A stretch of DNA of 64,000 nt from Solobacterium sp. GTDB lineage: Bacteria; Bacillota_I; Bacilli_A; Erysipelotrichales; Erysipelotrichaceae. The translations under genes were made by a program, and so were the position numbers. Where the stretch lies: NCBI GenBank assembly GCA_017941735.1, contig JAGAVW010000025.1, positions 1 through 64,000 of the forward strand. The letters run 5' to 3'. Below the pieces are notes generated by a model. The model saw only the letters and a program-made list of their open reading frames with translations, was not told the DNA's origin and searched no databases. The first letter of the stretch is position 1; each line of letters starts with the position of its first letter. Shown here in pieces: positions 1-63,792 of this stretch.

Positions 1-1164
1 GGTGCTGGTGTGCATGGAGGCGAAGTCATTGCGAGTGGGACGCCTAAAGAAATATTAAAAAATGAGCGCTCCATTACCGGACAATATTTATCCGGAAAAA
101 AACGAATTGAAGTGCCTGAAAAAAGACGCAAAGGTAACGGGAAATATGTGGAAGTATTTGGGGCAGCCGAACACAACCTCAAAGACATCAATGTGAAATT
201 CCCACTTGGGAAAATGATTTTAGTCACCGGTGTTTCAGGAAGTGGAAAGTCAACGTTAGTGAATGAAGTATTCATGAAGGCGGTCCAACAAAATCTTGGT
301 CGTACCAAAATCAAACCAGGAAAACATAAACGGATTAAAGGTTTAGATAACTTAGATAAACTCGTACAAATTGATCAAGACCCAATTGGTCGGACACCTC
401 GTTCAAACCCCGCAACGTATACAAGTGTATTTGATGATATCCGTAGTGTATTTGCGAATACTCCAGAAGCGAAGATGCGTGGGTATGATAAAGGACGCTT
501 TTCCTTTAATGTGAAAGGGGGACGTTGTGAGGCATGTTGGGGAGATGGTGTGAAAGTGATTTCAATGAACTTCTTACCCGATGTCTATGTGCCTTGTGAA
601 GTGTGCCATGGGAAACGCTACAACGAAGAGACCCTTGCGTGTACGTATCGTGGAAAAAGTATTTATGATGTCTTAGAGATGACGATTGAAGAAGCTTTAG
701 TCTTCTTCACAAATCATCCAAAGATTAAGAATAAATTACAGACCTTGTATGATGTTGGTTTAGGGTATTTAAAACTTGGTCAATCTTCAACGACGTTATC
801 TGGTGGGGAAGCACAACGTGTAAAGCTTGCCTCCGAATTACAAAAACGGCCAACAGGAAAAACAGTATATATTTTAGATGAACCAACAACCGGATTACAT
901 ACCGATGATGTGAGTCGTTTAATTGCGGTATTAGAAAGAATTGTGGATTCTGGAAATACAGTTATCGTGATTGAACATAATCTCGATGTGATTAAGTGTG
1001 CCGATTGGATTATTGATTTAGGTCCAGAAGGTGGGGATGATGGAGGAACCATTGTCACCCAAGGGACACCAGAAGAGGTTGCGAAAGATCCTAATTCTTG
1101 GACCGGTAAATATTTAGAAAAAGCATTATCTTGGACAAAAGAGAAAAAGAAAAAAGAGAAGTAA
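1..1164 (+). CDS. uvrA: UvrABC excinuclease subunit A, C-terminal part (cut by window edge)
   Basis: Damage-recognition ATPase of nucleotide excision repair. The reading frame is open from base 1, so the gene begins upstream. This is the second ABC ATPase half: Walker [10 protein letters not shown] near bases 229-255, a zinc module with CEAC (around 527-538) and CEVC (around 595-606), ABC signature LSGGEAQR (around 799-822) and Walker [12 protein letters not shown] (around 871-903). The Lys-rich end is a common ending for the family. hprK follows after 12 bases, so the two are probably co-transcribed. All visible catalytic and zinc residues are intact, so identity is secure; only the missing N-terminal half is unseen. 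Confidence 0.97.
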
Positions 1165-1176
1165 AGAGGTGAGAGT

Positions 1177-2136
1177 ATGGCACAAAAAGAATATTCACAA
1201 AAAGTAATGATTAAAAAGATTGTCGATTTCTTTCAGATGAAACAATTCACTGGCGATGAGAAGTCACTGGAGCGTTGGGTCATTGTGCCAGACGTGAATC
1301 GACCTGGTTTTGAATTAGCAGGTTATTTTCATAAGACCGAACCAAGACGCATAGTCATTATTGGGAATAAAGAGATGGAATACATCTCCCATATGAGTGA
1401 AGAAGATCAACGGGCACGTTATCCAATGATTACAGATGGCTTAACCCCAATGATTGTTATCACCAACAACAACACCTGCCCACCAATCTTGAAAGAGATT
1501 GCGGAAAAAGAGAATTTCCCAATCTTTGGGACAAGCCAAACAACCTCTCGCTTTGCGGTGGATTTAGTTTCGTACTTAGATGAAACCCTAGCGGAAGAAG
1601 ATACAGTTAGTGGTTCGTTATTAGTGGTATATGGAAAAGGTGTTCTCTTAACGGGAGAAAGTGGCATTGGAAAATCGGAAACCGCACTCGAATTAATTCG
1701 TAGTGGACATGTGCTAGTATCGGATGATCGCGTGGATGTACAACGTATTCATAACCACATTCATGGACATGCGCCAATGTTGATTGAAGGAAAATTGGAG
1801 ATGCGTGGCATTGGTATTATTGATGTAAGAAGAATGTATGGCGCAAGTTGTTTGAAGGCAAGAAATCGAATTGAAATGGTCATTCATTTATCGCATTATA
1901 ACGAGAATCATGAATACGAACGCATTGGTGATACAAAGGAAGAGTATACCGAAATTTTAGGTGTCCAAATTCCAACAGTGGAATTACCTGTTTCACCAGG
2001 TCGCTCAACCCGTATCATGGTAGAATCCGCAGTCACAAATCAAATCCTCAAAGAGCAAGGTTATCATAGTTCGAAAGAATTCCGTGACCAACTCTTAGAA
2101 TACTTAGAAGAAGAAAACAAGAAGCGAGGCTTATGA
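1177..2136 (+). CDS. hprK: HPr kinase/phosphorylase
   Basis: Bifunctional enzyme that phosphorylates HPr on Ser46 and reverses it, setting carbon catabolite control in Bacillota. The 319-aa length is normal. Walker A GESGIGKS lies near residues 159-166, followed by the SDDRVDV acidic pair, the EMRGIGIIDV signature and the C-terminal VELPVSPGRS motif. The RBS AGAGGTGAG precedes the ATG. An oddity: characterised enzymes carry a conserved His in an HGVLVD-type segment just before the P-loop, and here the segment reads VSGSLLVVYG, with Ser in place of His and Val in place of Asp. Kinase residues look intact; phosphorylase activity may differ (inference). The gene overlaps the next one by 4 bases. 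Confidence 0.95.
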   Translation: MAQKEYSQKVMIKKIVDFFQMKQFTGDEKSLERWVIVPDVNRPGFELAGYFHKTEPRRIVIIGNKEMEYISHMSEEDQRARYPMITDGLTPMIVITNNNTCPPILKEIAEKENFPIFGTSQTTSRFAVDLVSYLDETLAEEDTVSGSLLVVYGKGVLLTGESGIGKSETALELIRSGHVLVSDDRVDVQRIHNHIHGHAPMLIEGKLEMRGIGIIDVRRMYGASCLKARNRIEMVIHLSHYNENHEYERIGDTKEEYTEILGVQIPTVELPVSPGRSTRIMVESAVTNQILKEQGYHSSKEFRDQLLEYLEEENKKRGL

Positions 2137-2780
2137 GAAAAGAGCGAGCAGTCCTATTTGATTTTGATGGTACGCTCATTGATACAGAGCCAGCCATCCT
2201 CTATAGCTATGGGAAACTATTTGAAACCTATCGATCTAAGGAAGAATTTATACCCGAATACCAAGTGGCTGTATTAGGGCCTTCCATCGATTCGATGATT
2301 GCGCTTTATTTTCCGAATGAGGATACGCAAAAGCTCGTGGATGAATATCGTCATATTCAAAAAGAACATATGGAAGAATTAACCACCTTGATGCCACATG
2401 CCTTAGATTTACTCAAGTGGTTAAAAGAGGAAGGATATCCCGTTTCCCTTGTGTCATCAAGACGAAGAGATTCGATTGATAATGTATTAAACTTCCTACA
2501 TCTCAATGAATATTTTGAATTCAATGTGGGCTATGATGAAGTCAAAGAAGAAAAGCCACATCCAGAGGGAATTCTTAAAGCGATGGAATACTATGGATGC
2601 GAAAAAGGCATCTATATTGGGGATAGTCCCAATGATATCTTGGCAGGACAAAACGCAAACATCCCTACAGTTGGGTATGTATCAAAAGAAGAAAAAAGAT
2701 ACGCGATTGCGCAATGCGAACCAACGTATCTCATTACTGATTTAATGGAGGTAAAAGAAATCCTAGAAGGCTTAGATTAA
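2133..2780 (+). CDS. HAD-family phosphatase (PpaX-like)
   Basis: Haloacid dehalogenase superfamily hydrolase of 215 aa. Motif I is DFDGTLIDT near the N terminus with the nucleophile Asp, SSRRR supplies motif II, a conserved Lys lies in KEEKPHPEG, and IGDSPNDILAG is motif III. The helical cap sits between motifs I and II, as in the beta-phosphoglucomutase/PpaX subfamily. In Bacillus, ppaX lies downstream of hprK and hydrolyses pyrophosphate from HPr-Ser-P dephosphorylation; the direct overlap with hprK here supports the same job, although lgt, which lies between them in Bacillus, is absent. Substrate cannot be read from sequence. The stop codon is embedded in a terminator hairpin. Confidence 0.85.
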   Translation: MRKERAVLFDFDGTLIDTEPAILYSYGKLFETYRSKEEFIPEYQVAVLGPSIDSMIALYFPNEDTQKLVDEYRHIQKEHMEELTTLMPHALDLLKWLKEEGYPVSLVSSRRRDSIDNVLNFLHLNEYFEFNVGYDEVKEEKPHPEGILKAMEYYGCEKGIYIGDSPNDILAGQNANIPTVGYVSKEEKRYAIAQCEPTYLITDLMEVKEILEGLD

Positions 2781-2794
2781 GCCTTCTTTATTTT
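2765..2794 (+). terminator. Terminator overlapping two convergent stop codons
   Basis: Inverted repeat AGAAGGCTTA (2765-2774), loop GAT, TAAGCCTTCT (2778-2787), then TTATTTTG. It ends the hprK-HAD operon. The TAA of the HAD gene and the stop of the facing ECF gene both lie inside the hairpin, so the two genes overlap by 4 bases. Confidence 0.85.
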
Positions 2795-3301
2795 GTTTAC
2801 CGCTACCATAATTAAGGGGATTAAGATTAGCTGTAAAACAATACCAACAAATGCGTTGGTAAAAGCACCCGCTAAGAAAGCGGAAAAGGTAAAGGCCGTA
2901 CCACGTACGCCATGCATGACCATTTGCGCAATTCCCCAAACAATACGTCCCCCTAACATCGCAAGCACTAAAGTCACACAAATGGCAGTGAGATTCTTTT
3001 CTTTAAAGAAAGAATAGATTAGACCTGCTAAGCATCCATAAGTCATGAGCTCAAATGCCATAGGGATCGCACTTGGCATTGGTGGCATTCCAAATAAAAC
3101 GGAACGTAAGAGTGGGCAAATAAAGCCAACAAGGGCACCATATTGCCAACCACAAATAAAGCCACATAATAAAACAGGATAATGCATAGGGGATAACATC
3201 GCACCAATTTGTGGGATTTGTCCCGTGAGAAAAGGTAGGACTAAGCCAAGCGCTAAAAACATAGCCGCTAATGTTAGATTTTTAATTCTTAGTTGATTCA
3301 T
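2777..3301 (-). CDS. ECF transporter S component-like membrane protein
   Basis: Integral membrane protein of 174 aa with five or six hydrophobic segments. The pattern fits substrate-binding S components of energy-coupling factor transporters: an N-terminal LAAMFLALGLVLPFL helix, a GAMLSPMHYPVLLCGF loop and a GWQYGALVGFICPLL segment. Such proteins bind a vitamin or metal and work with EcfA/EcfT, which are not in this window. The start overlaps the larC stop by 20 bases, so the two are one transcript. Because LarC handles nickel, a nickel or cofactor-precursor substrate is possible, but that is inference from position only; the family also covers pantothenate, niacin and others. Confidence 0.75.
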   Translation of the reverse strand: MNQLRIKNLTLAAMFLALGLVLPFLTGQIPQIGAMLSPMHYPVLLCGFICGWQYGALVGFICPLLRSVLFGMPPMPSAIPMAFELMTYGCLAGLIYSFFKEKNLTAICVTLVLAMLGGRIVWGIAQMVMHGVRGTAFTFSAFLAGAFTNAFVGIVLQLILIPLIMVAVNKIKKA

Positions 3302-4496: not shown

Positions 4497-4525
4497 AGGC
4501 AACATCCTTTCCAAAAAAGAAAAGA

Positions 4526-4612
4526 TATACAAACAAAAATATCTTCTGATATGTATATCTTTTGTACTTCTGTACGAATGCAACTTCTGTTGCGATAACT
4601 ATTATACTATGG
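4526..4612 (-). promoter_or_regulatory. larC promoter and leader with three similar hairpins
   Basis: On the minus strand a TATAAT -10 box (complement of 4605-4610, in AGTATAATAG) is followed by a leader of about 100 nt. It holds three hairpins in a row, each with a C-AGAA-G closing and loop: GCAAC-AGAA-GTTGC (4580-4593), GTAC-AGAA-GTAC (4564-4575) and ATATC-AGAA-GATAT (4539-4552). The last also lies inside a larger repeat GATATAC/GTATATC. No T-run follows, so this is not a terminator. Function unknown; candidates are a protein-binding leader or DNA operators. Confidence 0.5.
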
Positions 4613-4848: not shown

Positions 4849-7800
4849 ATGAAAGAGAAAACCATGTTAAGAAAGATTTTCCCTATATTTTTAAGTTTGT
4901 TTATAGGGGTTGCGACAATCACGCCTGAAAGGATTATCGCAAACGAGGCAAATGAGGAAAGTGAAGTAACAGAAACCATCACAAATACTTCTGAAACACA
5001 AAGTGTTACGGAAGAGATTTTAGATGAAGAAATAAAAGAAGAGGTTTCAACAACCGAAGAGGTAGAATTGGTAGAAGAAAACCCAAATGACGTAAAACCA
5101 TCTTCTACTGAGGAAAGCCTTGAGCCGGTTGAGGATGAAACAACAGAATCTTTAAATCATGTGCTAGAAAATAATGAAGATGTCGTTGTAGAAAGTGCGA
5201 AAGAACCAGAAGTCATGGAGAATTCTTTATTTGCTGCTACATCGGGTGAACAAGACTGGTTACATTATTCCATTGACTTAGAATGGGATATTGCGGATCC
5301 AAGTCAAAAATATAACCAAAAGGTCATTACCGCATCGAGTGCCATTTTACAACCAAAGTATCGGTTAACAATTCAAACTTCTTCTGTTAACTATGCGGAA
5401 GAATCTATGGAAATCAGGCTTCCATATACCATGTTTACAAAAAGAGCAACCTCCATAAACCGTGATGGCTCTACGAAAGTATATAATCCAACAACCGTGA
5501 TGCCTTCGGACATTAGTGCACCACAATATCCAGAAACAAGTCCAAATTATTTCTTTAGTTATTGGGTTGATGAAGAAAACGATGAATTGGTATTTATCAA
5601 TACAAAATATATTCCTGCAGGTGAAAATACTACCGTCGAAGTCATGTATGATGTGAATCCTAATGTAATCATTGACTTAGATACCGCATCATTCCAAGCC
5701 AAAGCCAAAGCAACACCAGAGGCAGAACAAGCAGGCACCTATGAGGAAGAAGAGAGGGTTTCACCAACCATCACTTATCAACTTGACGTTGGTTTAGAAA
5801 GTATTACAGGCGTAACCGATTGCACTAAAGGAACCGGGTTTGAACCGGTAACGATAAAAGATGGATATCGTTACTATTTAGCTACAATTCTTTATTATGT
5901 AAGAGGGAACTCTCCCTATTTTGAAGAATTCACATTCGATTTTGCGGGGACCAATGGTGAAATTGTTGGTCCAGTTGAAAACTTTGAAAGCGGTACAACC
6001 ATGACCCTCGAAGAAGCAAAAGCCTATTATGCAATAGAGTCATTTATCAATGATGGGGGATCGAATAGAGAAGGCGATACTTCCGATGAGATGCAATGGC
6101 AAAGTGGATATAAAGTTTATGTGCGTTATCCAGATTCCGATGAAGTGGAAGAAGATGTTATGTATGTAACGAGTGATGTTACCGCATATGATGATGATAC
6201 ACATGAAGAGCCAGAAGACTATAATGATCGACTAAGCCGTAGTACAAGATATCACTATACTTGGCCTAAATATCCAGATAAACCACGTGGTATTTGGTAT
6301 AAAAACCCTGTTGGACAGAATCGCGACCGTGTAGAATTTGTAAGCACTCGCCCACAATATGTAACCAGTTCAACCGATAGTTATCGAGGACCTGCTCGTT
6401 TCTTTATTGGTGTGGAAGATGATCATGTCATTTTTTCACATAATGGGAATGGTAATCAACTTGTAATAACAGATACGGGGCTCGAACAAGAACGTGTCAT
6501 TGATAGAACTGGGGAAACCGAACCAAGTGGAGCACCCTATTTAGAATATGAAGTATGTGGTGTTTATTTACCCGTATTAGCTAATGGGAAATTGCGAATT
6601 TATAATGAAGAGACACAAAGTATTGATGCGTTTGATGGGGAATGGTTTGAGAGTATTGTGATTGAAGGCTCTACAGATGGTTCAACATGGGAAGAAGTAT
6701 ATACAGTTGCACATGACAATCCACATGACCCTTTAATAATTGGAGGTACGAATACCACTCCATACAGTGCAGATGTGACAGCAATGTGGGTTGGGAAAGG
6801 ATATCGCCAATTCCGCGTAACGTTTAACGGAGTGATAGAGAATATTGTTATCGACAAAGATATTGTTTGTGCTTATATGCATGGCACAGATGATACGTCT
6901 GACTATTTTTTACGACAGGAACTTGATCAATATACCAACTGGGCAAATATTGAACTATATAATACTACCGGTAGTAAAGAATACACCGTGCGTGACTGGG
7001 GAATGATAACTCTTTTCCCATTGACTGAATATGGAAGCTCGAGCGCACAGAAATTCACAGGTAGCGTAACCAATGATCCGGTCAATGAAATGGCACATGT
7101 GGAATTTAGCCTTAGAACAACCTATATCTACTCTTTAATCGAAGGAAACTTAGGAGATAATCCATCTGCGGATGCAGCAGGAAAAATCATGTACGATTTA
7201 AGACAAGCACATCCACATATTTTTGAAGAATTAAAAGATTTAGATGATGTAAAGACATTAGTTGGATATGATTTGTTGCCGGAGGGATATGTATTTGAAA
7301 AATTTATTGGGAACATGTCATATACTGATTCTATAAAAAGAAGAGGCACGGAAGCAAGGGTGAATCTTGGGTATGCAGATTATATAACTCCTACGATTAC
7401 CACAATCAATAACTATAAGAATACAAGACGTCAAATGGTCGTTTTCACTTGGGACATTGAAAACATTATTAAGACAAGAGCTTTAAATAAAGGGGTTTCT
7501 CCAACAAGACTTGTGTTGGAATCCTCCTATCTTGCGCAAATCTCATGGAATGATTTGGTGTTCTATCAAAATGAGCACAATCTCTATGGAGAGCAACGTG
7601 GAGATGGAAAAGAGGTTATGGGCGGTAGTGTAGATAATGGAAGCCCAGTTGATACGTGGATTAATTATGGTGTATTCCGTGAGGTGTTAGATGAAAACGG
7701 AGAGTATGCCTATAAAGATTTAAATGAAGATGGAGATAGTACATCCGCAAATACGTTATACGCGTATTCCACCGTTTCACCAAACGTAACCATGAGTGCG

Positions 7801-9579
7801 ACAACAGGCATTCAAAAGCACATCATGGGAGATTCTGAAACTTGGACTGACTTAGACCATACCGATATTAATAAAGAATACTATTATCGTGTACGTGTAT
7901 CGAATGGAGATAATACACATGTTACAGATTTGATTATCTATGACACGTTAGAAGAAGCTGCAAATACCCAATTGGAGACTGGAGAAGTAACGTGGAAAGG
8001 TTCTTTTAAGAGTATTGATGTTAGTTCGATTGAAGCGCATGGCTTTGCGCCAGTTGTATACTACTCCACCGCAGATCCAGCCGACTTAGATTACAACATT
8101 GTTACAGGTAGAGAAGATAACATCTGGATTGATGATACGACACTATGGTCCTCTGAAGTTCCATCCGATCCTTCTAAAGTGACAGCGGTTGCGGTCGATC
8201 TTCGCAAAATGCAAGATGGCTCGGATGCGGAGCTTGGTAAAAACCAAGGGGTAGAATTCTTTATCACAATGGTTGCGCCTCCAGAGTATCCAACCCTTAA
8301 AGATCCAGAAATGGTCTACGCAATTAATCGTCCTGCATACCATAGTTATCAATATGTTTCCTATGCTGCAGATGGTACCTACTTCACAGATATCGGTAGA
8401 AGAGTAAAAATCTACTTGGAACCAGTAGGTAGAATTACGGTTAAGAAAAACAGCGTAAATGAACCAACACCTGCAGATACAAAGTTTGTAGTAACTGGCC
8501 CAAATGATTATAAAGTTGAATTCTTATATTCCGATATGGTGGATGGTGTTTATAATATTGAACCCCTACAAATGGGGGAATACACCATTACCGAATATTT
8601 GAATGGAGAAGAATATAGTTGGGATGTTAGCTTTGATGGTGCCGCGAACCCTTCTAGTAGCTATGAAGATGGAGCAATTGTAACTTCTGGAAATGTAACA
8701 TTAGAGAATGCAGGCGATAGTCCGGTTGTAGAAATTACAAATACTTCCTATGGTGCGAAGATTCAAATCGAAGCGGAAAAAGTTTGGGAAGATGCAAACA
8801 ACCAAGATGGTGTTCGTCCAAAAGAAGTCACTGTGAATTTATTGGGAGATGGCGAATTAGTCACATCTCAAAAAGTGACAGAAGCAAATTCATGGAAGTG
8901 TACTTTTACCGATTTACCGAAATATAAAGAGTTCAAAGAAATCAAATATACACTTGAAGAAGAACCAGTCGAAGGATACGAATTGGTTGGTATTACAGAA
9001 AAGAAACAAGATGAAGAATTAGATAATGACAAGATTGAGGAATTGGATAATATAGAAACAAAATCCTATATCATTACGAATAAACATGTACCAGAGACAA
9101 TCAATCTCGTGGTTAAAAAGACATGGGAAGGTGATAGCGAAGATACGCGTCCAGCCACAATTGTTGTTAAACTTCTTGCGGATAAAAAAGAAATTCAAAG
9201 TAAAGAAATTAGCGTAAATGAACAATGGACCTATACTTTTGTAGATTTACCAAAATATAAAGATGGAAAAGAGATTGTTTATACCATCGAAGAAACAAAG
9301 GTAGAAGGGTATGAAGAACCTGTTGTGAAGAAGGATGGCGAGAGTGGATTTACCATCACAAATAAATATGTACCTACGCCAACGCCAACACCTTCTTCAT
9401 CTCCAACTCCAAAAGTCACGCCAACACCAACACCTAATGTACCTACAAAGACAACGGTCACAAAAGTACCAACACCTTATACTGGAGACAACTTCCATAG
9501 TGTTGTATGGATTGGATTATTGTTGGGTGCAATGATTACCATGTGTGGTTCCGTTTATTTCTTAAAGAAATCAAATTAA
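4849..9579 (+). CDS. Large cell-wall-anchored surface protein with Cna-B domains
   Basis: Secreted protein of 1576 aa. Start chosen at 4849 because AAGGAGCAC lies just before it; a longer frame from 4810 lacks an RBS. Order: signal peptide (about 1-33), very acidic Glu/Thr-rich linker (about 34-125), a long unrecognised beta-rich region (about 130-1190), then three Cna-B/SpaA-like domains (about 1196-1303, 1304-1415, 1418-1509). Repeats two and three show Lys in KVWED/KTWEG, Glu in YTLEEE/YTIEET and Asn in ITNK, as expected for intramolecular isopeptide bonds. A Thr/Pro stalk (about 1510-1543) leads to TPYTG (1542-1546), a hydrophobic helix and KKSN, a non-canonical sortase signal. Probably an adhesin; ligand unknown. 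Single-gene unit with its own terminator. Confidence 0.88.
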   Translation: MKEKTMLRKIFPIFLSLFIGVATITPERIIANEANEESEVTETITNTSETQSVTEEILDEEIKEEVSTTEEVELVEENPNDVKPSSTEESLEPVEDETTESLNHVLENNEDVVVESAKEPEVMENSLFAATSGEQDWLHYSIDLEWDIADPSQKYNQKVITASSAILQPKYRLTIQTSSVNYAEESMEIRLPYTMFTKRATSINRDGSTKVYNPTTVMPSDISAPQYPETSPNYFFSYWVDEENDELVFINTKYIPAGENTTVEVMYDVNPNVIIDLDTASFQAKAKATPEAEQAGTYEEEERVSPTITYQLDVGLESITGVTDCTKGTGFEPVTIKDGYRYYLATILYYVRGNSPYFEEFTFDFAGTNGEIVGPVENFESGTTMTLEEAKAYYAIESFINDGGSNREGDTSDEMQWQSGYKVYVRYPDSDEVEEDVMYVTSDVTAYDDDTHEEPEDYNDRLSRSTRYHYTWPKYPDKPRGIWYKNPVGQNRDRVEFVSTRPQYVTSSTDSYRGPARFFIGVEDDHVIFSHNGNGNQLVITDTGLEQERVIDRTGETEPSGAPYLEYEVCGVYLPVLANGKLRIYNEETQSIDAFDGEWFESIVIEGSTDGSTWEEVYTVAHDNPHDPLIIGGTNTTPYSADVTAMWVGKGYRQFRVTFNGVIENIVIDKDIVCAYMHGTDDTSDYFLRQELDQYTNWANIELYNTTGSKEYTVRDWGMITLFPLTEYGSSSAQKFTGSVTNDPVNEMAHVEFSLRTTYIYSLIEGNLGDNPSADAAGKIMYDLRQAHPHIFEELKDLDDVKTLVGYDLLPEGYVFEKFIGNMSYTDSIKRRGTEARVNLGYADYITPTITTINNYKNTRRQMVVFTWDIENIIKTRALNKGVSPTRLVLESSYLAQISWNDLVFYQNEHNLYGEQRGDGKEVMGGSVDNGSPVDTWINYGVFREVLDENGEYAYKDLNEDGDSTSANTLYAYSTVSPNVTMSATTGIQKHIMGDSETWTDLDHTDINKEYYYRVRVSNGDNTHVTDLIIYDTLEEAANTQLETGEVTWKGSFKSIDVSSIEAHGFAPVVYYSTADPADLDYNIVTGREDNIWIDDTTLWSSEVPSDPSKVTAVAVDLRKMQDGSDAELGKNQGVEFFITMVAPPEYPTLKDPEMVYAINRPAYHSYQYVSYAADGTYFTDIGRRVKIYLEPVGRITVKKNSVNEPTPADTKFVVTGPNDYKVEFLYSDMVDGVYNIEPLQMGEYTITEYLNGEEYSWDVSFDGAANPSSSYEDGAIVTSGNVTLENAGDSPVVEITNTSYGAKIQIEAEKVWEDANNQDGVRPKEVTVNLLGDGELVTSQKVTEANSWKCTFTDLPKYKEFKEIKYTLEEEPVEGYELVGITEKKQDEELDNDKIEELDNIETKSYIITNKHVPETINLVVKKTWEGDSEDTRPATIVVKLLADKKEIQSKEISVNEQWTYTFVDLPKYKDGKEIVYTIEETKVEGYEEPVVKKDGESGFTITNKYVPTPTPTPSSSPTPKVTPTPTPNVPTKTTVTKVPTPYTGDNFHSVVWIGLLLGAMITMCGSVYFLKKSN

Positions 9580-63418: not shown

Positions 63419-63449
63419 GAAGATCAGCTTAATTGCTGATCTTCTTTTT
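63419..63449 (+). terminator. Terminator between oxidoreductase and hypA
   Basis: Perfect 10-base stem GAAGATCAGC (63419-63428) / GCTGATCTTC (63435-63444), loop TTAATT, TTTTT. The hypA stop codon lies in its left arm and loop. Confidence 0.92.
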
Positions 63450-63792
63450 CTTCCGCTTCTATTTGTTTGATGTTACATTCATTGCCTTCTACAAGATAAG
63501 TATGTTCACTATGGCAATAAGGACAAATCTTTCCATACTCTACTGTTTCATATTCTTGTTTACAATCTTCACAAAAGGTAACGGCTTTAATCACTTCAAT
63601 ATAGAGTTTGGCATCCTTTAAGAGAGGATGCTTTCTTTTGAAATAATCCCAACACTCTTCAAAATAGTCTGTCATGATACCAGAGACTTCTCCAATCTCT
63701 AAGGTAACCGAACCAATCTTTGAAAGATGATTTTCTTCTGCTAATTCATCCAAAGTTTTTGCGACATGTGTGACAATACTCAATTCATGCAT
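63424..63792 (-). CDS. hypA: Hydrogenase nickel incorporation protein HypA
   Basis: Nickel metallochaperone of 122 aa, for NiFe hydrogenase and sometimes urease. The N-terminal MHELSIV provides the nickel-binding His2; the zinc site has two CxxC pairs (CEDC and CPYC). Length is near the usual 113-120 with a short acidic tail. It is downstream of hypB on the minus strand with 1 base between them. No hydrogenase genes are in view; they should lie beyond the right edge, or HypA/B may serve another nickel enzyme. Confidence 0.95.
   Translation of the reverse strand: MHELSIVTHVAKTLDELAEENHLSKIGSVTLEIGEVSGIMTDYFEECWDYFKRKHPLLKDAKLYIEVIKAVTFCEDCKQEYETVEYGKICPYCHSEHTYLVEGNECNIKQIEAEEKEDQQLS

Follow-up and report, generated by a model that had tools for sequence, protein, structure and literature searches.

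Tandem (A)NGAA-loop hairpins upstream of larC in Solobacterium sp. probably belong to a transcription attenuator of a nickel cofactor regulon

The three tandem C-AGAA-G hairpins that precede larC in a Solobacterium sp. contig probably form the 5' part of a transcription attenuator over larC and the adjoining ECF transporter gene, within a nickel/nickel-pincer nucleotide (NPN) regulon set by a factor that binds (A)NGAA loops, a reading to which we give a probability of about 0.7. Comparison across genomes shows conserved hairpins, alternative structures, a shared gene set and co-occurrence, and suggests that the window (the whole 64,000-nucleotide stretch of DNA that was analysed) holds one copy of an apparently undescribed leader RNA family, widespread among gut bacteria, many of which have it upstream of genes for nickel cofactors and transport. 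A literature search covering titles and abstract openings, together with passages of PMC3369931, PMC7702098, PMC11796402 and PMC8934654, found no comparable lar, nickel or NPN leader RNA. Scans with Rfam 15 covariance models placed no family over the leader in the window, at 10 loci at the gathering score or at 4 loci up to E = 1.

The original prediction described three hairpins in a row ahead of larC, with different stems and the same AGAA loop, and the sequence bears this out exactly, on the larC strand (Table 1). The triple is real and beyond chance. When we required Watson-Crick stems of at least 4 around C-AGAA-G, the window was found to hold three such hairpins on the minus strand and one on the plus strand. 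First-order Markov simulation of 800 strands, each of 64 kb, gave a mean of 0.235 hairpins per strand and not one pair or triple within 60 nt. By itself hairpin 3 is weak (-1.9 kcal/mol), and the minimum-energy fold of the leader keeps hairpin 1 and replaces hairpin 3 with an A/U-rich stem that surrounds its place, the terminator-like stem of Table 1; hairpin 3 may itself compete with the 3' arm of that stem. A terminator scan requiring three G-C pairs did not call this stem and its U-run. From the position of the TATAAT element, the transcript would start at about hairpin 1.

Table 1. Features of the larC leader and adjoining genes (positions in the window)
Feature	Position	Strand	Basis or remark
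-10-like TATAAT	4601..4606	-	Sequence; no good -35 hexamer; no full sigma-70 site listed by promoter scan
Hairpin 1, GCAAC-AGAA-GTTGC, putative upstream recognition hairpin (type A/B)	4580..4593	-	Relatives have counterparts with other stems
Hairpin 2, GTAC-AGAA-GTAC	4564..4575	-	Antiterminator (P2) position in model alignment; CGTAC-AGAA-GTACG in L023 and L025
Hairpin 3, ATATC-AGAA-GATAT	4539..4552	-	Corresponds in position to P3, the NGAA hairpin inside the terminator
Terminator-like stem, 5' arm AAAAGATATAC	4553..4563	-	Predicted fold and R3 alignment
Terminator-like stem, 3' arm GTATATCTTTT	4520..4530	-	Could alternatively pair with the 3' arm of hairpin 3
U-run CTTTTTT, 3' of the stem	4513..4519	-	Sequence
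Shine-Dalgarno GGAAAGG of larC	4506..4512	-	Sequence
larC, NPN cofactor biosynthesis, 404 aa	3282..4496	-	NCBIfam TIGR00299 and NF052512 above cut-off; Pfam PF01969
ECF transporter S component, overlapping the end of larC	2777..3301	-	PF12822

Elsewhere in the window, a large surface protein with Cna_B domains is encoded divergently from larC (4852-9579, plus strand), and a gene for a HypA-like nickel chaperone (63424-63792, minus strand; 84.2 bits, slightly under the curated 88.1) adjoins one for a large NAD(P)/Fe-S oxidoreductase.

Scanning a genome collection for LarC gave 80 loci, mostly from Clostridia. The 400 nt directly upstream of clostridial larC contain the hairpins at 2 of the 80 loci, and many of the loci carry hairpin arrays where the lar operon begins, 1-2 kb further upstream. 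There, the order of elements is a promoter, hairpin A (often with a 5-nt ANGAA loop), hairpin B (NGAA), a linker, the antiterminator hairpin P2 (for example, GTATACC-ATGAA-GGTATGC), the hairpin P3 (for example, CTC-TGAA-GAG), a complement of the P2 3' arm and a U-run. Typical copies, mostly from Firmicutes, comprise one or two free-stem (A)NGAA hairpins followed by an antiterminator with the same loop, whose 3' arm can alternatively pair downstream to give a terminator enclosing another NGAA hairpin. The predicted folds of two such leaders (L047 and L195) are the terminator, and three others (L030, L109 and L190) have no evident terminator.

Both alternative structures covary in an alignment of 16 sites. 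For the terminator with its nested P3, 81.6% of cells are paired in these seed sites, with a covariation of 0.476 against a maximum of 0.438 when the pairing is slid, a narrow margin. R2, a covariance model built on the terminator part, matches 24 of the 80 loci at E < 0.1, and on 32 sites aligned with it P2, which is unfitted and lies outside the model, has 86.6% of cells paired, double changes in six of seven pairs and a covariation of 0.516 against 0.226 at most when slid; terminator counts on the same sites would lean toward R2 because the alignment was made with it. At 47 of 50 sites, at least one (A)NGAA hairpin (72 hairpins in total) falls within the 115 nt that precede the modelled part, as compared to 2/50 for the next 125 nt upstream and 1/50 for the antisense strand. 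Among sites that played no part in building R2, 32 of 35 have upstream hairpins, or 25 of 28 once the 7 previously noticed by their hairpins are set aside. One counted hairpin, at L290, lies inside the preceding DUF3842 gene and may be there by chance. These findings support the reading of covarying stems under a constant loop as a repeated RNA recognition element, which recurs in relatives on the sense strand with compensatory changes. The loop itself proved less fixed than had been proposed: AGAA is the commonest (32 of the 72), followed by AGGAA (13), TGAA (12), ATGAA (5), CGAA (4), AAGAA (4) and ACGAA (2), in a search that took (A)NGAA loops only and left out 4-nt GGAA. AGNN does not cover the TGAA and CGAA loops, so the suggested parallel with yeast double-strand RNA-binding proteins is not supported; the AGNN tetraloop hairpins of yeast Rnt1p resemble the three in the window by their AGAA loop and differ from the family, which has TGAA, CGAA and 5-nt loops in other copies and a bacterial leader context.

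The copy in the window is diverged, with an A/U-rich terminator stem that overlaps little with the antiterminator. Searches with R2 and with a further covariance model, R3, which covers P2 and P3, did not find it, window- or genome-wide. When R3 was run without filters on 401 bases, it matched the leader at 4571-4506 (17.1 bits, E = 0.0012; next best, 4.1 bits), aligning hairpin 2 with P2 and placing hairpin 3 inside the terminator-like stem. Since the wider searches miss this copy, its placement rests more on its hairpins, its gene context and the similar leaders L023 and L025 (CGTAC-AGAA-GTACG and CATATC-AGAA-GGTATG) than on the model. As in clostridial lar leaders, the (A)NGAA hairpins precede a nickel/NPN gene and lie on its sense strand. 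Two simpler searches were set aside: of 15 matches to a triple CAGAAG pattern in the same genome, 14 are not leaders and look like low-complexity coding repeats, and a single-hairpin model (R1) held too little information, matching mostly coding sequence and a few ordinary terminators.

In the genus, 50 of 60 genomes searched have a LarC match. Hairpins with C-[ACT]GAA-G occur within 260 nt upstream of larC at 10 of 25 loci, and L030 additionally has two, so the expectation that relatives share them in their larC leaders holds for these loci and not for the others, where they are absent. Across 18 genus hairpins, double changes are seen in five of six pairs and one pair is invariant, which is illustrative only because the hairpins were selected for pairing. 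Several relatives have a stem with a U-run behind it that encloses the last hairpin or competes with it. At least eight genomes without larC hairpins (G001, G006, G009, G010, G016, G021, G022 and G028) have a model match with the same architecture before another gene of the set.

How wide this set is was seen from site searches in 50 whole genomes, 40 genus genomes and 150 genomes of the family to which the L047 genome belongs. The first gene after the 62 sites encodes a small membrane protein (SMP1) at 23, an ECF S component at 11, LarC at 10, LarE at 5, LarB at 4, SBP_bac_5 at 3, a TonB receptor at 2, and Peripla_BP_2, a FecCD permease and CbiM-PDGLE at 1 each, with none at 1; the reference proteins for the SBP5, PBP2, FecCD, TonB, CbiM and ECF-S assignments were drawn from these same sites. 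Not counted as sites were G091, G102, G112, G073:C19, G103:C5, G103:C16, G103:C31:1422, G079:C2, G087:C13 and G082:C53 from the 50 genomes, which lack such hairpins or a nearby set gene, except G102, left out uninspected. From the genus, L297, L298, L300 and L303 were left out, as were, uninspected, L301, L302 and the weaker matches that have no locus. Weak matches with E > 0.01 beyond those of the 50 genomes were likewise left uninspected, and L310 (G198) was retained in the tally and scored as a miss. The leader that had been taken for a larC element does precede larC, and it belongs to a nickel/NPN gene set rather than to larC alone. Both neighbours in the window, larC and the ECF gene, lie behind a leader of their own elsewhere, the window S component being 61% identical over 169 residues to the L304 protein, whose gene stands alone behind a leader.

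Where read, SMP1 is usually followed by a second small membrane protein. Such pairs, the commonest genes behind the leader, are found in L047 (2366-2773 and 2791-3105, plus strand) and L278 (1576-1935 and 1959-2264, plus strand), and had no family match in Pfam (the L047 pair and the first L278 protein) or NCBIfam (the L278 pair). For two of the three SBP_bac_5 proteins, which were scanned, the nearest NCBIfam models are Opp4A and NikA, both below cut-off. Nickel as the theme of the regulon is suggested by these gene families; CbiM-, FecCD- and TonB-type systems carry cobalt, corrinoids or iron too. In two genomes, tandem NGAA hairpins precede an apparent SAM-dependent methyltransferase gene (L077, 5226-5290, plus strand; L329, 1983, plus strand), which may have a role in the metabolism of a nickel chelator or cofactor.

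The Solobacterium genome itself has a second hairpin pair on another contig (L190, G000:C55), before a DUF362 gene that is followed by a DUF3842 gene. DUF362 proteins are encoded behind such hairpins in two genomes (L190, 1934-2824, minus strand, two hairpins; L136 in G061, 1535-2515, plus strand, one), and DUF362 is possibly an NPN-related enzyme. The same genome also encodes a second, shorter LarC-like protein of 319 aa (L156, G000:C59:8000-12000, 1067-2026, plus strand), and the next gene encodes an aldo/keto reductase with ferredoxin motifs; a reductase gene of this type lies ahead of larC itself in several relatives.

A DUF3842 gene often adjoins the leader, and the two co-occur across genomes, in statistics that ignore kinship between genomes that are not independent: DUF3842 is found in 23 of 23 genomes with an R2 match at E <= 0.01 versus 9 of 27 others in the 50-genome set, chosen partly by leader presence or absence at larC (Fisher, 4e-7), in 9 of 10 genomes with an R3 match versus 25 of 140 others in the family sample, evenly drawn and not leader-selected except for its centre G069 (p = 5e-6), and in 13 of 13 genus genomes with an R3 match (E <= 0.01) versus 19 of 27 others (p = 0.037). 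The tenth R3 match in the family sample (L310) has neither hairpins nor a set gene. A few of the 25 family genomes that have DUF3842 and no R3 match at E <= 0.01 carry tandem hairpins missed by the model, for example, before larB in L333 and before a lipoprotein gene in L327. The leader and DUF3842 are on separate contigs in 17 of the 28 leader genomes tallied. An AlphaFold2 model of DUF3842 (pLDDT 82.7) has a Rossmann-like alpha/beta fold with nucleotide-binding relatives, and Foldseek gave Rossmann-like matches, the best being the UbiX-like decarboxylase 1sbz (E = 2.1e-4). A PDB sequence search returned nothing significant, no known RNA-binding domain was found in the structure model or by Foldseek, and a literature search found no paper on DUF3842. 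On the strength of co-occurrence DUF3842 is the best candidate for the factor that reads the loops, with the odds about even; it could merely be another member of the pathway. Binding of a dinucleotide-like ligand would suit the sensing of NPN intermediates derived from NaAD. In PyrR-type attenuation, an enzyme-fold protein acts as an RNA-binding attenuator, which Rossmann-like DUF3842 would parallel, with another RNA, another fold and no homology shown.

A ligand-binding riboswitch, in which the RNA would sense nickel or NPN with no protein involved, is unlikely. Such a switch would account for a nickel/NPN-themed gene set and for an attenuator-like RNA with covarying alternative structures, but hairpin number varies by site, the stems are free and only short repeated loops are fixed, so that the leader looks like a repeated docking site rather than one aptamer; in addition, it matches no Rfam family, and its presence tracks a protein family. 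The NiCo (czcD) riboswitch, likewise a nickel-related leader RNA, is a four-helix aptamer upstream of efflux genes, whereas the leader here consists of repeated simple hairpins before uptake and cofactor genes and finds no match in Rfam scans. We consider it very improbable that the hairpins are constitutive 5' stems or ordinary terminators that protect or end transcripts, their loop reflecting a preference for stability. Transcripts are commonly stabilised by stems close to their start, and some R1 matches are plain terminators with this loop, but C-[ACT]GAA-G is absent from 84 other terminator-like hairpins (0/44 in 264 kb of the same genome and 0/40 in 200 kb of seven related genomes, where C-GGAA-G occurs in 2 of the 40) and is therefore not a general terminator habit; alternative pairing and a narrow gene set would also go unexplained.

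Recognition by a known ANTAR antiterminator has very little to recommend it beyond the overall plan, which in passages of PMC3369931 and PMC8934654 is likewise one of tandem hairpins, the second competing with a terminator. The dual-hairpin targets in the eut, nasF and amiE leaders also combine small tandem hairpins in which the loops are conserved and the stems are free, and their last hairpin overlaps a terminator to which it is the alternative. Their loops, though, are hexanucleotides whose first base is A and whose fourth is G according to the same passages (PMC3369931, PMC8934654), as opposed to 4-nt NGAA or 5-nt ANGAA here, where an extra NGAA hairpin is nested in the terminator; they serve mainly nitrogen-related genes rather than nickel/NPN genes. 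Loop sequence and gene content rule out ANTAR as the reader in the window's genome (94% complete), in which PF03861 has no match, barring a gene in the missing 6%; it is present in 13 of 40 genus genomes at E <= 0.001 and missing from 9 of the 13 with an R3 match at E <= 0.01. Equally improbable is a role as DNA operators for a nickel or lactate regulator, the other option that had been raised, since, for all that these are inverted repeats close to a -10 element, their arms differ from repeat to repeat around a fixed asymmetric centre, they keep to the sense strand (47/50 versus 1/50), the leaders that were read follow promoter-like sequences and mostly close with a U-run, and two mutually exclusive covarying RNA structures are seen.

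In a transcription attenuator read by an (A)NGAA-binding factor, free leader RNA would fold as the terminator, and because the L047 and L195 leaders do so by default, a factor would be needed to keep P2. We infer a trans-acting factor that would read the (A)NGAA loops, binding successive hairpins as they emerge, P2 last, and so stabilise them and prevent termination; nickel/NPN genes would be switched on when nickel or the cofactor is short. In the few copies beside the ribosome-binding site, control may instead be translational, as suggested by L030, L109 and L190 with no evident terminator. The direction of control may also be the opposite: at L190 the ribosome-binding site is covered in part by the second hairpin, whose stabilisation would turn the gene off rather than on, and the predicted fold does not form that hairpin. 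In a bolder version, which we put forward tentatively and hold to be somewhat less than an even bet, DUF3842 would found a new class of RNA-binding antiterminator, a Rossmann-like protein that senses nickel or a cofactor intermediate derived from nicotinic acid, clamps (A)NGAA hairpins in nascent leaders and thereby switches the whole nickel/NPN regulon in Firmicutes and in at least two Gram-negative genomes.

As far as literature searches show, control of nickel uptake and NPN cofactor synthesis in gut anaerobes is undescribed at the RNA level. By marking a regulon, the leader family would assign a number of uncharacterised genes, those for the two small membrane proteins, the ECF S component, DUF362 and DUF3842, to nickel/NPN metabolism. 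It offers a candidate RNA-binding regulator of a new kind that is open to direct testing, and it would also provide a sequence handle for nickel transporters and NPN-dependent enzymes.
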